IMG/VR virus record: IMGVR_UViG_3300037245_000841
Coordinates: 1 to 24,676 of that record
Source: a virus
Length of the DNA: 24,676 bases
Strand: one strand, 5' to 3'
The notes beneath the pieces are model-generated. The model was given only the letters and a program-made list of their open reading frames with translations. It did not search any database and was not told where the DNA came from. Positions 1 to 6,189 of the stretch are shown in pieces (the first letter of the stretch is position 1; the number at the start of each line of letters is the position of its first letter). A program made the position numbers and the translations under genes.

Positions 1-811
1 GTCGTCCGGCTGGGTTCGGGTCTACGCACACGCCGTCGCTCGGTGGAGGGTCTACCGGCGGTGGCTCCGTTCCCGGCTCTTCCGGCCACGTTGCGCCCGT
101 GCAGTCCACGTTCCACCCGTCGAGCTTCGCGCCTGGGTACCAGCGCACGCCGTCTTCGTTCGGGTTGATCACGCGGTAGTTCTCATGGAAGTCGCCGTCA
201 CAGAACGACCCACGCTTGATCGAGATCTGGTCGGAGCAGCCGTCGCCTGGAGGGCACACCTGTCCCAATGGGGATTCCACATGACGACCACAGGAGAACT
301 TGACGATCTCGTCCCCTACGCGCACGCCCGCATGAAGCTGCTTGCAGACTGCTTGGAACCAGAGGTCCACGTGCAACGACACTGGGCACGGCTCTTGGCC
401 GACGTAGCAGCCCGTCAGTGTGGCCATCGCCTTGTTCAGGGCGGATCCGTAGTTGCCTGGGTTGCCTCGCACCGCCGTGATCTGATCCTGCGGAACGACA
501 GGGAACCACTGGTTCTCTACGGGAGGGTCCACGGGTGGGGGATCGACAGGAGGGGGCTCTACGGGGCAGTCAGCCGCCTTCTCGCAGTGCTTGGGGTCGA
601 GCGTCGGGTTGTGGAGGCAGTCACCACAGGTCATGCCCTCTACGTGGCACCAAGGCAGTCCTTGGTCAAGCAGGGCCTGACAGGATTCCGTGTACGGCGG
701 ATCGACCGGGGGATCAACGGGTGGCTCGGTTGGGTCGGGTGGCTTTGGTAGCCAAGAACACCCCACGAGAAAGATGGTTGCAAGAGCAACGGTAATCAGC
801 TTCTTGTTCAT
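1..811 (-). CDS. Pro- and Cys-rich lipoprotein (partial, runs off left edge)
   Basis: An open frame of 270 codons starts at the ATG at 811 and is still open at base 1, so the C-terminus is missing. The N-terminus is a lipoprotein signal: Met-Asn-Lys-Lys, a hydrophobic run, then lipobox LVGC with the predicted lipidated Cys18. Mature sequence has PPVDP-type repeats just after the Cys (about residues 22-40), again near residues 82-95 and near the visible end. Between them are Cys-rich blocks that could form disulfides. The ATG overlaps the stop of the holin-like gene as ATGA, so it is the third gene of endolysin-holin-lipoprotein. Position suggests an outer-membrane role in lysis (o-spanin-like) or superinfection exclusion. 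It is much longer than ordinary o-spanins and no i-spanin is seen, so function is open. Lipoprotein call is firm. Confidence 0.8.
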   Translation of the reverse strand, partial: MNKKLITVALATIFLVGCSWLPKPPDPTEPPVDPPVDPPYTESCQALLDQGLPWCHVEGMTCGDCLHNPTLDPKHCEKAADCPVEPPPVDPPPVDPPVENQWFPVVPQDQITAVRGNPGNYGSALNKAMATLTGCYVGQEPCPVSLHVDLWFQAVCKQLHAGVRVGDEIVKFSCGRHVESPLGQVCPPGDGCSDQISIKRGSFCDGDFHENYRVINPNEDGVRWYPGAKLDGWNVDCTGATWPEEPGTEPPPVDPPPSDGVCVDPNPAGR

Positions 812-1104
812 GACTTCTCCTTGAAGATCCCGATCCCGATGATCAGGGATAGGATCGCGCCGAACACAATCACTGGCAGTACGGTCGTGGCCCACACCAA
901 ATGTAGCGTAAGCGATACAAGGAAGATGAACAGCACGCCCCGGCGTAGCTTGCTGAACTTCCTTCCAGTCTCCGACCACTCCGGAACGCCCGTCCAATCT
1001 CCAACCGTCTCGGATAGGGTGTCCCCCTCGACCTTGTTGAATGCGGCCTTGATCTCAAAGAATAGGAAGATGACTAGCCATGAGCCCCAAATGATTTCGT
1101 TCAC
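808..1104 (-). CDS. Small membrane protein, putative holin
   Basis: 98 aa from a GTG at 1104, chosen because it overlaps the endolysin stop as GTGA and follows a purine-rich GGAGAGGGG. A longer frame begins at 1167 but would overlap the endolysin further with charged, unlikely sequence. Hydrophobic stretches lie near residues 4-18, 57-74 and 77-93, separated by a polar loop with several acidic residues and a basic KLRR before the second segment; the C-terminus is charged (FKEKS). Two or three membrane segments, small size, charged tail and position directly after the endolysin fit a holin. No specific holin family was recognised, so function rests on context. Confidence 0.65.
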   Translation of the reverse strand: MNEIIWGSWLVIFLFFEIKAAFNKVEGDTLSETVGDWTGVPEWSETGRKFSKLRRGVLFIFLVSLTLHLVWATTVLPVIVFGAILSLIIGIGIFKEKS

Positions 1105-1520
1105 AATGTTCCCCTCTCCATCGCCTTCGCCATGCGTTCTGCGCGGCCAGGAGTCTGACGCGCCCACTTCGAAGAACGCATCCCCTTCGCTGCCTGGGTA
1201 TAACGCCCGTGCCTCACGTGGTCCAACGTCCTACGGAACGACAGGAGGCCGCGTAGCCCCATCTGGTACGCCATCGCGAACAGGACCGTCCTACGGTCGT
1301 GATCCAGAAAATGGACCCACGGCAGAGCGTCGGTGACCTCATCGCACATCGCCGCAACGTACGACAGCAGCAGGTACTCGGCCTGCTTCTCGGTGATCCC
1401 CCCGCCCTTGCGGGCGTCGATGAGTGTTCCGTACCCGATGGTCCAATAGCCTAGATGATCCTGATACGCAGATGACCTGAAGCCCTCCTCCTTCTTCAAG
1501 ATCTCTAGTAGCTGCTTCAT
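1101..1520 (-). CDS. Endolysin, GH24 phage lysozyme (T4 type)
   Basis: 139 aa muramidase cleaving the MurNAc-GlcNAc bond of peptidoglycan. The catalytic triad has exact T4-lysozyme spacing: Glu12 in EEGFR, Asp21 and Thr27 in DHLGYWTIGYG, matching E11/D20/T26 of T4. The C-terminal region has the family signature SKWARQTPGRAERMAKAM, equivalent to the W-x5-TPNRA segment. The length is slightly below T4 lysozyme. No signal peptide or SAR segment is visible, so release should need the holin, whose likely gene follows with a GTGA overlap. The ATG at 1520 overlaps the preceding stop as ATGA. Confidence 0.93.
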   Translation of the reverse strand: MKQLLEILKKEEGFRSSAYQDHLGYWTIGYGTLIDARKGGGITEKQAEYLLLSYVAAMCDEVTDALPWVHFLDHDRRTVLFAMAYQMGLRGLLSFRRTLDHVRHGRYTQAAKGMRSSKWARQTPGRAERMAKAMERGTL

Positions 1521-1738: not shown

Positions 1739-2057
1739 TACGCACCAGCCTTTCGATGTAGGACACGAGACCGTCGAGGTTGTGTTCAGAGGCCCACGGA
1801 GCCACGCCCCTGGCCAGGAAGAGCTTCACTGTGTACTTTGCGATGTCTGGCCTCACCCACTCGATAGTTCTTGGCCACGACGGCGAGTACCGAGTGCTTC
1901 CGCACGGGCACATCGAATCTTCCTCCATGCGCAAGATCTCCGTCTCGCGGGAGAGCACTCGCCCGCACTTAAAGCAGCGGTAGAAGTCGTAGACCCGATC
2001 ACTCTTCGGTGTCTTACGGTACTCCGCGAATACCTTACTCTCACTCAGCACTGTCAT
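1731..2057 (-). CDS. Zinc-ribbon protein, 108 aa
   Basis: Starts at the ATG at 2057, preceded by AAGGAGG with good spacing; an upstream extension of this frame to 2207 reads Arg/Ser-rich junk and is rejected. Two Cys pairs form a zinc ribbon: CFKC around residues 28-31 and CPC near residues 50-52, separated by about 20 residues with aromatic flanks. The C-terminal half is an alpha/beta-looking segment with no known motif. The gene starts 17 bases inside the end of the glycosyltransferase gene. A structural or nucleic-acid-binding zinc ribbon is likely; the specific role is unknown. Confidence 0.65.
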   Translation of the reverse strand: MTVLSESKVFAEYRKTPKSDRVYDFYRCFKCGRVLSRETEILRMEEDSMCPCGSTRYSPSWPRTIEWVRPDIAKYTVKLFLARGVAPWASEHNLDGLVSYIERLVRIG

Positions 2058-2796
2058 TGCTTTCCTCCTTTTCTGCCTGTTCCTTCGCTGCCTTCGCTGC
2101 GTCCCTCTGCGCCTTCGCGGCGAGGTAGTGCTCCCGCGTGACGATGACCGGAGGACCGGAGTGTCCCACCTGAACGGTGGTGTTGCACTGCAACTGCACT
2201 CCGACATTCATAGCCTGATGGCAGAAGCTGAGGTCTTCGCCAAAGCCTTCCTCGGCGTCTCTCGTGTCTGGGAACCACTTCCCCTTCGGGTCGAAGTCGG
2301 GCGAGGCCGCGATCTTCTCGACTACCTCCAGGCCAGTCCAGCAGAAGCCGAACCCGCATCCATCCACTTGGAAGAACGCGTTCTCCGGGTAGTTTGCCAT
2401 CTGCTTGTACGTGACGCCCTCCCTGTCATAGTCGTACAGGGTCGGCCAGAGGAAACCCTCTCGCTGGTGGTACACCCCTGTGACGAACGACGAGTTGTAG
2501 ACCAAGGCGGACTTCAAGAGGTTGGCGATGTCTGCGGCACCAACCATGATGTCCGAGTCGATCCACATGACGCCGTCTGCGTCTTCCTTGTTCTCCATCA
2601 GAGACCCCGCGACATACGTGCGGGCATCACCGTAGGGTAGGCGATCCGGAGAGGAGTCCCCCACCCACTTGAGCCCCATGTTGGTGGCGGTCATCATCGC
2701 GACCCTTACCGACTTCTGGCAGATCGGGTCAACGTGTCCGTACGTTGGGACCGCCAGGATGGCTCGCAGCCCCTCTAGTGGCTTCTCTTCGCTCAT
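2041..2796 (-). CDS. GT-A fold glycosyltransferase-like protein
   Basis: 251 aa. The N-terminal strand RAILAVPTYGHVDP and the later DGVMWIDSDIMV (DSD at residues 80-82) match the nucleotide-sugar and metal-binding layout of GT-A family transferases found in many phages. A GFGEDLSFC segment near residue 184 resembles the catalytic-acid ED region. The last 30 residues are Ala/Lys/Glu-rich and probably a helix or coiled coil. The start overlaps the methyltransferase stop as ATGA, so it is translated in series with the radical SAM and methyltransferase genes. Acceptor unknown: a virion protein, host glycan or modified base are all possible. Confidence 0.75.
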   Translation of the reverse strand: MSEEKPLEGLRAILAVPTYGHVDPICQKSVRVAMMTATNMGLKWVGDSSPDRLPYGDARTYVAGSLMENKEDADGVMWIDSDIMVGAADIANLLKSALVYNSSFVTGVYHQREGFLWPTLYDYDREGVTYKQMANYPENAFFQVDGCGFGFCWTGLEVVEKIAASPDFDPKGKWFPDTRDAEEGFGEDLSFCHQAMNVGVQLQCNTTVQVGHSGPPVIVTREHYLAAKAQRDAAKAAKEQAEKEESNDSAE

Positions 2797-3311
2797 TGTG
2801 CCTCCAGCACAAAACGGAATGCGTCGTCCTTGTAGTTCGCCAACAAGATTTTGAAGTCGGCCTTGTAGCAGAACCGGTAGTCAGTCATCGAAGTCTTCCC
2901 TACCTGCTCCTCGTACTCCGCCTGAGACAAGAAGGTGAGAGACCCATCGTTAAGCTCACGCGTGTGGCCTGGGTCGCCCCTGGCCCACTTCGACCGATAG
3001 TTGGGAACGGTCGCACAGAAATAGCCGCCCTTCTTCAGCATGCGATGGAACTCAGAGAATTGGTCGAAGAAAAACTTCCAGTCACCCTGCATGCCGGTGT
3101 GCTCAAGAATTTCGTACGCGTGGATTTCGTCGTACTCGCCAGCCTGCGACCAGTCGTACGGAAGCTGGTCGAGGTTGGCCAGGATGTCGGGGTTGTGATC
3201 CGCGTTCATGTCCATCGTTGTCAGTTCCCCGCACCAGTCCTCCAGGCCGTGACAGAAGATCCGCTTCTGCGTACTGGATCCGGCTCCGAGTAGTAGGATC
3301 TTTCGCCTCAT
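2793..3311 (-). CDS. SAM-dependent methyltransferase (class I, Methyltransf_11-like)
   Basis: 172 aa from the ATG at 3311, which shares one base with the radical SAM stop (TGATG). A TTG one codon upstream is a weaker alternative. A Rossmann SAM site is visible: LLLGAGSS (residues 6-13) as motif I, TTMDMNAD (31-38) as the acidic motif II, YDEIHAYEILEH (60-71) as the post-II strand, and HRMLKKGGYFCATVPN (89-104) as the typical KPGG-like turn and strand. It is short for the family, with a small C-terminal cap. Order with radical SAM and glycosyltransferase genes suggests a shared small-molecule, glycan or protein substrate rather than DNA; no DNA methylase DPPY/NPPY motif is present. Confidence 0.8.
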   Translation of the reverse strand: MRRKILLLGAGSSTQKRIFCHGLEDWCGELTTMDMNADHNPDILANLDQLPYDWSQAGEYDEIHAYEILEHTGMQGDWKFFFDQFSEFHRMLKKGGYFCATVPNYRSKWARGDPGHTRELNDGSLTFLSQAEYEEQVGKTSMTDYRFCYKADFKILLANYKDDAFRFVLEAQ

Positions 3312-4138
3312 CAAATCCTCGTGCAGTTCTTGCAGATGTCGTAAGCGTCGGCTCGATTTTCACTATGATCCAGCCGGAATCCCAGGTACTCCGCCGATGA
3401 GTACACTTCAGCCAGCGTCTGCTTGTTGAGGTCTCCGAAGATCATCTTCCCGGTCGGGTCGAAGCAGCAGGCTGTCACCCTGCCGTCGTACATGACGTAG
3501 ATCTGCTTGACGGCCCTTTCGCAGCACTCGTTCGCCTTGAACGGACGCCGCGCCAGCATGTCTCCAGACCAGTTGCCGACGTAGACGCACTTCCCTCTGC
3601 CATTGGTCCGGCGGTCTCCCCACTTCCGGAGGAAGTTTCTGGCGTCCTCCTCGGTGAAGTTGTCGATGTCCATGATAGCCGTACACTCGACATCCGTGGT
3701 CTCCGAGTTGGCGATGGCGTCGGTCAGATTATTACAGACCTTGTCATATTTCCCGACGAGACCCATCGCCTTCTCGTGCTGCTCGGCGTTGAGTGCGTTG
3801 ACGCTAACGCTCACAAATGATGTGCCAGCGTCCTGTAGCGCGCGGAAGCGATCAGATGTGAGGTATACGCCGTTGGTGTGGAAGTAGATGAACCAGTCCG
3901 GACGAAGGTCGCGAGCCATCTTGATGCGCTCTGCGAGCTTGGGGTCCAGCAGCGGCTCACTCAGCCCATTGAGAGTGAGGAATGTGATGCTGGTAAAAGT
4001 CGCTGCCTCTCGGACGATCTTGCTGTAGAGGTCCATGCTCATGAGCTTCCCGCGACGGGACTCTTCCACCACCGGGTAGATACAGAAACGGCAGGCGGCA
4101 TTGCAGGTTGAGTTGGTTTCAATCTGTAGCTGGAGCAC
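3311..4138 (-). CDS. Radical SAM protein with SPASM-like C-terminal domain
   Basis: 275 aa. The iron-sulfur/SAM motif CX3CX2C is at Cys12, Cys16 and Cys19 (CNAACRFC), followed by LNGLSEPLLDP (57-66), the counterpart of the SAM-binding GGEP motif. The C-terminal third carries extra cysteines (C184, C205/206, C224/225, C269, C272) with VMYDGRVTACCFDP and the LAEVYSS region typical of SPASM domains, which hold auxiliary Fe-S clusters. SPASM enzymes commonly modify peptides or sugars. The start is a GTG at 4138: an in-frame TAA lies two codons upstream, so nothing longer is possible. There is no Shine-Dalgarno and a TATA-like element lies only bases upstream. First gene of the leftmost transcription unit, just past a terminator. 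Confidence 0.88.
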   Translation of the reverse strand: MLQLQIETNSTCNAACRFCIYPVVEESRRGKLMSMDLYSKIVREAATFTSITFLTLNGLSEPLLDPKLAERIKMARDLRPDWFIYFHTNGVYLTSDRFRALQDAGTSFVSVSVNALNAEQHEKAMGLVGKYDKVCNNLTDAIANSETTDVECTAIMDIDNFTEEDARNFLRKWGDRRTNGRGKCVYVGNWSGDMLARRPFKANECCERAVKQIYVMYDGRVTACCFDPTGKMIFGDLNKQTLAEVYSSAEYLGFRLDHSENRADAYDICKNCTRI

Positions 4139-4174: not shown

Positions 4175-4217
4175 CAAAAAACACCCCTGGCCGAGATCCG
4201 GAGACCCCAGCCAGGGG
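4175..4217 (-). terminator. Rho-independent terminator after the capsid unit
   Basis: On the minus strand an 8-bp perfect stem CCCCTGGC/GCCAGGGG (arms 4210-4217 and 4184-4191) with an 18-base loop is followed two bases later by six T residues. It lies 16 bases past the stop of the decoration-like gene and closes the head transcript. Confidence 0.85.
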
Positions 4218-4233
4218 CAAAGTTGTCACCACC

Positions 4234-4763: not shown

Positions 4764-5843
4764 TTAGGACGCTGTGGTCAACGTGATGTTGCCCAGAACG
4801 CCGTTCTTGTCGCGACGGGATGCCCAGTGGCAGCCGTACCACTGAACGATGCTCGTCTCGCCTGCACCGTTAGGTGCGCGAACGAACTCGCCAGGGGTGA
4901 AGTCTGCCCCGGAGAAGACCGTCACTCCAAGGTACTTGGTGTTTGCGGCGTACATGGTGCCCTTCTCGGAAGATGCGTCCACCGAAGAGGTACCGTTTGC
5001 CACGTCAGGGGTGAACTGATCGAAGCACAACGGTGCTCCGTTCAGGCGGATTGCCTTCCACGGGAAGTTGACTTCCTCGTAGTCCACGAAGCGCTGGAGG
5101 GCGCGGAGTGCTGCGCTGACCAACTCGTAGGTGTAGATGTCGGACACGAAGAGGTCAGGCCCCGGTCCGGCGCTCTTGGAGGTGAGGTTGATGAGGTGGT
5201 CGATCTCCTTGAGGAACGCGGAGTAGGACGACGCCGCAGACTTCACGGAGATGTTCTTCCACCACGTCTCGGTCGCGGAGTTGATCTGTCCCACGGTTCC
5301 CACACCGGTCTGTCCGGTGTCGGTAGCGTGGTACTGGATCATCAACGGGATCGGCTCGATGAAGGTGGAGCCGTTCACTGCGGAAGTGCGTGCGGTGGTG
5401 ATGCTGGAGTCGTCCGTTGCGCCCTGGCCCTGCATCAGCCAACGACCGAAACGGTCTTCTAGGCCAGACATCGCCTGCTCGGTCTTGCTCTTCAGCAAGT
5501 CGAGTGCTGCGCCCTTGTTCTGTGCGCGTTCGAAGTCTCCGATGGTGATCGAAGAAGCCATACGTGCCCAGTCGAAGAACGCGGGGGTCTGCCCGTCGAT
5601 GGGAGTCACATCCACCTGACCGACGCCGTTCGGGCCGAAGGTGTCAATGGGTGCGAACTCGTACATGAGAGGCACGCGGTAGCGGTCGCCAAGCTGCGAA
5701 ACGGTCTTCCAGTTGCCGCTCTTCTTGTACTTGAAGTAGAACGGGTTCGCGGTGGTGATCTGGTTCTGCATCACCGGGCGAATCTTGTCGAGAAGCGCAG
5801 TCAGGCGGGCATTGTACGTGCGAGAAAGAGTGGTTGCCGCCAT
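4764..5843 (-). CDS. Major capsid protein
   Basis: 359 aa, in the head module downstream of the scaffold-like gene. The N-terminus (LSRTYNARLTALLDKIRPVM) is helical, followed by a beta-rich region with YRVPLMYEFAPI and a long helical segment with IGDFERAQNKGAALDLL. The C-terminal half has TYELVSAALRALQRFVDY and a final strand-rich region ending near WYGCHWASRRDKNGVLGNI. This composition and length fit HK97-fold phage coat proteins, but I assign it mainly by context. The start is well set: AAGGAGAT lies 7-8 bases before the ATG. It has its own upstream region between two terminators, consistent with very high expression. Confidence 0.82.
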   Translation of the reverse strand: MAATTLSRTYNARLTALLDKIRPVMQNQITTANPFYFKYKKSGNWKTVSQLGDRYRVPLMYEFAPIDTFGPNGVGQVDVTPIDGQTPAFFDWARMASSITIGDFERAQNKGAALDLLKSKTEQAMSGLEDRFGRWLMQGQGATDDSSITTARTSAVNGSTFIEPIPLMIQYHATDTGQTGVGTVGQINSATETWWKNISVKSAASSYSAFLKEIDHLINLTSKSAGPGPDLFVSDIYTYELVSAALRALQRFVDYEEVNFPWKAIRLNGAPLCFDQFTPDVANGTSSVDASSEKGTMYAANTKYLGVTVFSGADFTPGEFVRAPNGAGETSIVQWYGCHWASRRDKNGVLGNITLTTAS

Positions 5844-6124: not shown

Positions 6125-6158
6125 AAAAAAAAGAAGAGCGCCCCGAAGAGCGCCCTTC
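6125..6158 (-). terminator. Rho-independent terminator after the scaffold gene
   Basis: On the minus strand GAAGGGCGC (6158-6150) pairs with GCGCTCTTC (6141-6133), 9 bp with one G-T wobble and an 8-base loop, followed directly by eight T residues. It lies about 30 bases past the stop of the scaffold-like gene and separates the packaging/scaffold transcript from the capsid gene. Confidence 0.88.
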
Positions 6159-6189
6159 CCGGCGAACGGTGGAGTGGGGTGGTGGAGTG

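Follow-up and report, generated by a model that had tools for sequence, protein, structure and literature searches.

The 24,676-base window analysed here, IMG/VR record IMGVR_UViG_3300037245_000841 from an uncultured bacterial virus, carries in its late region a three-gene cassette for a radical S-adenosylmethionine (SAM) enzyme (rSAM), a predicted class I methyltransferase (MT) and a GT-A glycosyltransferase (GT). We read this cassette, with a probability of roughly 60%, as a swappable virion-glycosylation module that puts a sugar on the capsid (or cement) protein and then modifies this sugar. For the more specific proposal, that the radical SAM enzyme contributes to modifying the virion post-translationally, with a sugar on the major capsid protein (MCP) or cement protein radically tailored and then methylated by a module mobile among phages with unrelated capsids, the odds appear about even. 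Computation shows the three genes with their families and folds, their conserved linkage both within the cassette and with capsid genes, and the occurrence of gene fusions, swaps and an empty site.

The minus-strand late block runs from terminase through portal, scaffold-like protein, MCP and cement protein to the cassette (rSAM, MT and GT), followed by a zinc-ribbon gene, a small open reading frame (ORF), lysozyme, a membrane protein and a Cys-rich lipoprotein (Table 1). An earlier, sequence-only reading had called three ORFs coupled by overlaps, set off from the capsid genes by a strong terminator and lying ahead of the lysis genes, and each of these points was recovered. The ORFs stand on the minus strand at the positions in Table 1. 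At the rSAM/MT junction, TTTGATGAGG, one base is common to the rSAM stop TGA and the MT start ATG, and at the MT/GT junction, ACAATGAGCG, the MT stop falls within the ATGA of the GT. A strong terminator separates the capsid genes from the cassette, and the lysozyme gene lies downstream, after the zinc-ribbon gene and the small ORF. Comparably tight junctions occur in L006, L005 and L092 (L-numbers are the labels of the compared viral records). No sigma-70-like promoter stood out just upstream of the cassette. A further hairpin resembling a strong terminator, again with a run of T, was observed at window 6131-6160 (minus strand), following the scaffold-like gene and immediately preceding the capsid gene.

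When 2.9 million viral contigs were scanned with alignments, 36 records of the rSAM clade were obtained, the window among them, or 33 once three near-duplicates were set aside; scans of the viral contigs with a single rSAM or GT sequence returned zero matches, so that alignments were needed. Among the 29 records having enough sequence, 27 have the GT behind or beside the rSAM. A class I MT, belonging to any of three families, occurs in 29 of 33, and 28 of 33 have a cement gene upstream on that contig; the cassette is placed nearly always directly after the MCP and cement genes. Gene order varies (rSAM-MT-GT, MT-rSAM-GT, MT-rSAM-MT2-GT and rSAM-zinc ribbon-GT-MT), a variation that speaks for shared function and against mere descent of a frozen block. 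Of the records from a scan seeded with the MCP, and hence independent of the rSAM, 14 extend far enough downstream, and 12 of these contain the rSAM; MCP identity across relatives is 32-85%. Judged by pairwise distances, the rSAM and GT diverge in step with terminase, portal and capsid (Mantel r=0.84 for rSAM against TerL and r=0.66 for GT against MCP), and the 92-kb record behind L101/L108 carries the MT and rSAM fused in one 478-aa ORF. Two cassette-family rSAM paralogues with a PLOD-type GT between them were observed within one island of L114 (10001-12792), and likewise in L099. Scans of GTDB with the rSAM motif and with the MCP motif found zero bacterial or prophage relatives. The only rSAM match among phage records, MT835743 (L002; MT835743.1), was not counted as phage context: it is filed as 'Bacteriophage sp.', yet by eye it carries V-type ATPase subunits, an ABC transporter, a lipoprotein and cell-envelope genes and looks like a bacterial contig.

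The trio also recurs beside unrelated capsid genes. In L139 and L140, a P22-type coat gene (PF11651, 4e-29 and 7e-39) is followed directly by GT (phrog_1574), MT and rSAM, a layout repeated in L138, L149 and L150. In L127, an HK97-type capsid gene (PF05065, 2e-50) precedes a 466-aa MT::GT fusion ORF and then the rSAM. A Phage_capsid_4/Mu gpT-type capsid gene in L132 and L136 is followed by an MptE-like gene, the rSAM, a Methyltransf_24-type MT (profile-tested in L132 only) and a GT4, these GT and MT being analogous, not orthologous, to those of the cassette; L132 has a Phage_cement_2 gene upstream of its capsid gene. Remoter phage rSAMs likewise have a sugar context: they adjoin KdsA-family, CMP-sugar synthetase and aminotransferase genes, and on the large phage contigs L129, L131, L133 and L142 an rSAM stands beside KdsA-family (PF00793), cytidylyltransferase (PF02348), transaldolase and aminotransferase genes, sets that are possible phage pathways for sugars like 3-deoxy-d-manno-octulosonic acid (Kdo). 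Tandem pairs of short rSAM genes (about 230-275 aa), an unusual arrangement, were observed in phage contigs L151, L155 and L160 (also L154 and L156). The sequence-only reading had taken the coupled order to imply a pathway rather than three unrelated genes, and co-occurrence in nearly all relatives, recurrence in several unrelated capsid lineages and the MT-rSAM and MT-GT fusions sustain that view: in the neighbourhood survey the trio travels together in nearly all related phages, contrary to the separate carriage that would have refuted it.

The slot occupied by the cassette exists in several versions. L175, with an MCP 79% identical to that of the window, has an empty site at 5540-5700, where the cement gene, a terminator-like hairpin and the zinc ribbon follow each other without rSAM, MT or GT. 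L176 (MCP 80% identical) carries a GT_PLOD gene (4e-9), a PS_pyruv_trans gene (2e-6) and the GT in the slot, without rSAM or MT, and a radical SAM gene is absent from the entire 93-kb record. Other islands have gained a sulfotransferase (2e-8, L005), a GT2 (1e-26, L099), PLOD-type GTs (L086, L099 and L100) or a PS_pyruv_trans gene (1e-9, L100). The GT looks like the common denominator of these islands, and the rSAM with the MT, the pyruvyl transferase and the sulfotransferase seem to be alternative ways of tailoring the group that it adds. Endonuclease VII/HNH-like genes lie between the cement gene and the rSAM in L006 (754-1299) and L121 (9042-9659), with PF02945 in both, and probable ones occupy the same gap in L107 (9458-9964) and L122 (6369-6881); they are possibly free-standing homing endonucleases that aid island movement. 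That the slot takes such unrelated genes and may be empty would suit an assembly by chance of unrelated morons in a permissive late-gene insertion site, but the recurrence of the trio over unrelated capsid lineages, the start/stop overlaps, the two different fusions and the co-divergence make this the least probable explanation that we considered, and a very improbable one.

The GT had been called a GT-A transferase with a DSD motif, an assignment strengthened by its model and its relatives. It has zero Pfam match and hits phrog_1574 (3e-18) and phrog_34859 'glycosyltransferase' (3e-8). An alignment of 20 sequences shares the WxDxD, GFG, ED and H motifs, with D80/D82, E187/D188 and H212 invariant. 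The structural model (predicted local distance difference test score, pLDDT, 94) has a GT-A fold that matches GT-A enzymes at 1e-9, the nearest being COLGALT1, STIV A197, LH3/PLOD3 and the polypeptide GalNAc-transferases (ppGalNAc-T). As far as the model indicates, the fold neighbours are largely protein O-glycosyltransferases.

The MT, with LLLGAGSS as its candidate GxGxx motif, scores only sub-threshold matches in Pfam, where its L005 homologue reaches the cut-off (Methyltransf_11), and the L006 orthologue is 58% identical and occupies the equivalent operon position. The sub-threshold Methyltransf_23 match and this relative agree with the earlier class I assignment, and the MT is, judging from these comparisons, probably a short class I enzyme with clear orthologues despite its weak Pfam score.

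For the third enzyme, the radical SAM call and its CX3CX2C core stood, whereas the label of SPASM-like auxiliary cysteines gave way to a single-cluster Twitch domain. The core motif is formed by C12/C16/C19 and is present in 17/17 relatives, as is the auxiliary pattern C206-X12-G-X4-C224 plus C269-X2-C272, after which the chain ends within three residues; the full seven-cysteine SPASM set with two auxiliary clusters is lacking, there being zero cysteines beyond C272. The Twitch motif consists of CX9-15GX4C plus CX2C. Twitch is a SPASM domain cut down to one cluster (PMC9012708). The cysteine spacing therefore identifies the C-terminal region as a Twitch domain with one auxiliary cluster rather than a full SPASM domain. 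BtrN is the best solved relative by sequence and heads the fold matches of the model (pLDDT 88.7), followed by BlsE, anSME, DesII and MoaA, so that cyclitol/sugar enzymes make up three of the top five (BtrN, BlsE and DesII). Like the window rSAM, BtrN combines a CX3CX2C core with a Twitch cluster of four cysteines. It differs in that identity is ~20% and that BtrN is a butirosin-pathway dehydrogenase acting on a free aminocyclitol. The NCBIfam equivalogs compared (W-rSAM maturase, MoaA, PqqE, NirJ and others) all scored far under cut-off. A viperin (pVip) identity was rejected: the matches were weak and generic (PADLOC 1.6e-9; NCBIfam viperin 27.7 bits against a cut-off of 180), and the Twitch domain and the better fold match to BtrN also oppose it.

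These features bear on the chief rival explanation, in which the rSAM modifies a capsid or cement residue itself (by epimerisation, crosslinking or hydroxylation-like activation) and the altered residue then serves as substrate for the GT and MT, as in a pathway for ribosomally synthesised and post-translationally modified peptides (RiPPs) run on a structural protein. Pfam calls SPASM on the rSAM C-terminus, and many peptide-modifying rSAMs have this domain; anSME, EpeE and SuiB match the fold well; and a modified lysine of collagen is the substrate of PLOD-type and COLGALT1-like GTs. Nevertheless, the enzyme is a single-cluster Twitch protein closest to BtrN, the cassette shows no leader-binding domain of the RiPP recognition element (RRE) type and no small precursor ORF was noticed in it, and L176 keeps the GT without the rSAM, next to a sugar-modifying pyruvyl transferase; peptide tailoring is hence considered unlikely. 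The 275-aa rSAM lacks an N-terminal extension, and the window, L005 and L006 showed no obvious precursor ORF in a non-exhaustive look at small ORFs. A RiPP context of the kind that RODEO targets was accordingly down-weighted, with a full SPASM lacking and neither leader-binding domain nor precursor noticed, and the RiPP-like peptide among the substrates first proposed is unsupported, the enzyme being closest to BtrN and no precursor having been seen. Among those substrates a glycan, linked to the virion, is the best supported, given the nearby pyruvyl transferase, sulfotransferase and PLOD-type GT and the protein O-glycosyltransferase-like fold of the GT.

As to which protein carries the glycan, every cassette lineage has a capsid gene beside the cassette, and not every lineage has a cement gene there. 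The MCP is favoured over the cement protein, as the more economical target, because the P22-type lineage has no cement gene adjoining the trio; the decoration protein, which had been offered as a target together with the Cys-rich lipoprotein, is for the same reason kept only as an alternative acceptor. The cement orthologue in L175 matches PF09956 Phage_cement_2 at 9.8e-5, just below the cut-off, and a comparison by eye of cement proteins from cassette-bearing and cassette-less phages found no feature that tracks the cassette. The lipoprotein is unsupported as a target, as it is matched solely in the window's own lineage; relatives of it lie at L005 11864-12976, L103 7342-8505 and L087 3365-4474, with the conserved segment 'ESCQALLDQGLPWCHVEGMTCGDC'.

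The usual reading of phage GT islands is a different one (PMC7029224), namely that the enzymes change lipopolysaccharide (LPS) or capsule sugars of the host to stop superinfection, as proposed for the GTs of pelagimyophages and of seroconverting phages. Glycan enzymes, sulfotransferases and pyruvyl transferases do also make surface polysaccharides. The islands, however, show no flippase, polymerase or lipid-carrier enzyme; the genes sit in the late structural block by the capsid genes in several lineages, just ahead of lysis, when a surface change would be of little use; and the GT fold matches are mainly protein O-glycosyltransferases. Host-surface modification therefore seems improbable, somewhat more so than peptide tailoring.

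Phage DNA hypermodification pathways use GTs and sometimes radical SAM enzymes, and the three enzymes could in principle alter phage bases to evade restriction. The sole nucleotide-modification hint in the window is a weak match to DUF1599 ('nucleotide modification associated domain 1') at 15920-15432 on the minus strand (6e-4, below cut-off). Against this explanation, the thymidylate-synthase family PF00303, which includes dUMP/dCMP hydroxymethylases, was found in 0/14 long related records (controls positive; the records are maybe incomplete), and the cassette lies in the late operon by the capsid genes, not in the replication block. DNA hypermodification is thus very improbable.

For the favoured virion-glycosylation module, the following course may be envisaged. 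During late expression, the GT-A enzyme would use a host nucleotide sugar to glycosylate the assembling virion protein (the MCP or, alternatively, the cement protein); the donor must be host-derived since the window cassette has no nucleotide-sugar synthesis genes. The rSAM/Twitch enzyme would then alter this sugar (or the donor) radically, by a dehydrogenation, epimerisation or C-OH deoxygenation like those of BtrN, BlsE or DesII, and the MT would cap the modified sugar by O- or N-methylation. In evolution, the module is interchangeable, with a pyruvyl transferase and PLOD-type GT, an added sulfotransferase or an empty slot in sister phages. We infer that a virion protein is the acceptor, that the rSAM acts on the sugar and not on the polypeptide, and that the steps follow in this order; the benefit may be shielding or receptor tuning.

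Several points weigh against this reading. Evidence for the acceptor is indirect, the lack of nucleotide-sugar synthesis genes counts here as well, and the place beside the capsid genes could be a highly expressed site that tolerates insertions. L117 and L120 have no nearby GT, and L118/L119 have no MT. The MT and GT are weak on Pfam alone, and the GT family is common in viral contigs without the cassette rSAM, so that the GT by itself says little. By fold, the RiPP- or protein-acting rSAMs (anSME, EpeE and SuiB) score only slightly below the sugar enzymes.

A GT gene in or beside the virion structural block, as found in the window and its relatives, recalls several known systems. The MCP of Sulfolobus turreted icosahedral virus (STIV) is glycosylated, and A197, the proposed GT, is a small soluble GT-A enzyme thought to glycosylate the MCP B345 in the cytoplasm with host donor sugars (PMC10551542). 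It is the second-best fold match to the window GT and its nearest viral analogue. STIV differs as an archaeal virus with a double-jelly-roll capsid, A197 is 18% identical to the window GT, and the available excerpts describe no tailoring rSAM or MT. The chlorovirus Paramecium bursaria chlorella virus 1 (PBCV-1) encodes A064R, a GT-GT-MT fusion that builds and O-methylates the MCP glycan and resembles the MT::GT fusion of L127 (PMC7019647); it belongs to a eukaryotic virus with a larger glycan machinery, and the available part of that paper describes no radical SAM step. Mycobacteriophages that encode GTs bear glycans on capsid and tail-tube proteins (Freeman et al. 2023, Cell Host Microbe 31:1216, cited in PMC12619734 and PMC11256854); these phages are unrelated, and the accessible text of the two citing papers mentions no radical SAM/MT trio. 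The pelagimyophage host-recognition islands hold GTs and radical SAM proteins together, but there the GTs are read as LPS modifiers in a tail-fibre region, and no compact capsid-side trio appears in the accessible part of PMC7029224. No radical SAM step in virion glycosylation was found in the literature searched, which covered subscription journals thinly and some sources in part. Capsid glycosylation is thus known, and its radical SAM version is, as far as found, undescribed.

The features discussed are collected in Table 1. The zinc-ribbon gene adjoins or sits inside the cassette in relatives and is kept in the cassette-less L175 too.

Table 1. Positions of the cassette and surrounding features in the window.
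Feature	Position	Strand	Details
Major capsid protein (MCP), 359 aa	4764..5843	-	phrog_9953 major head protein 5.2e-26; favoured acceptor
Capsid cement/decoration protein, 145 aa	4234..4671	-	Possible acceptor; aligned across 20 phages
Intrinsic terminator	4182..4219	-	Between cement gene and cassette; 17-bp stem and TTTTTT (T6); RNA z-score -6.75
Radical SAM/Twitch protein, 275 aa	3311..4138	-	Pfam Radical_SAM 7.7e-17 and SPASM 9.3e-13, both over cut-off
Class I SAM-dependent methyltransferase (predicted), 172 aa	2793..3311	-	Methyltransf_23 4e-4 (under curated cut-off); phrog_6636 methyltransferase 0.0017
GT-A glycosyltransferase, 251 aa	2041..2796	-	WIDSDI; GFGF; GED; H212
Zinc-ribbon protein, ~108 aa	1731..2057	-	Homologues in L005, L006, L087-L094 and others
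Endolysin	1101..1520	-	Pfam Phage_lysozyme 4.9e-15; closes island downstream
Cys-rich lipoprotein, long	1-811	-	After lysozyme; cut by window start

Capsid glycosylation is documented in few phages and archaeal/algal viruses only. If the reading is right, widespread uncultured phages would make capsid glycans that are chemically unusual and variable, with consequences for virion recognition, adsorption and clearance, and the cassette rSAMs would form a new class of radical SAM enzymes, small and soluble, that tailor sugars. Because the module exists naturally in empty, swapped and fused versions, the claim can be tested by ordinary heterologous expression and mass spectrometry.

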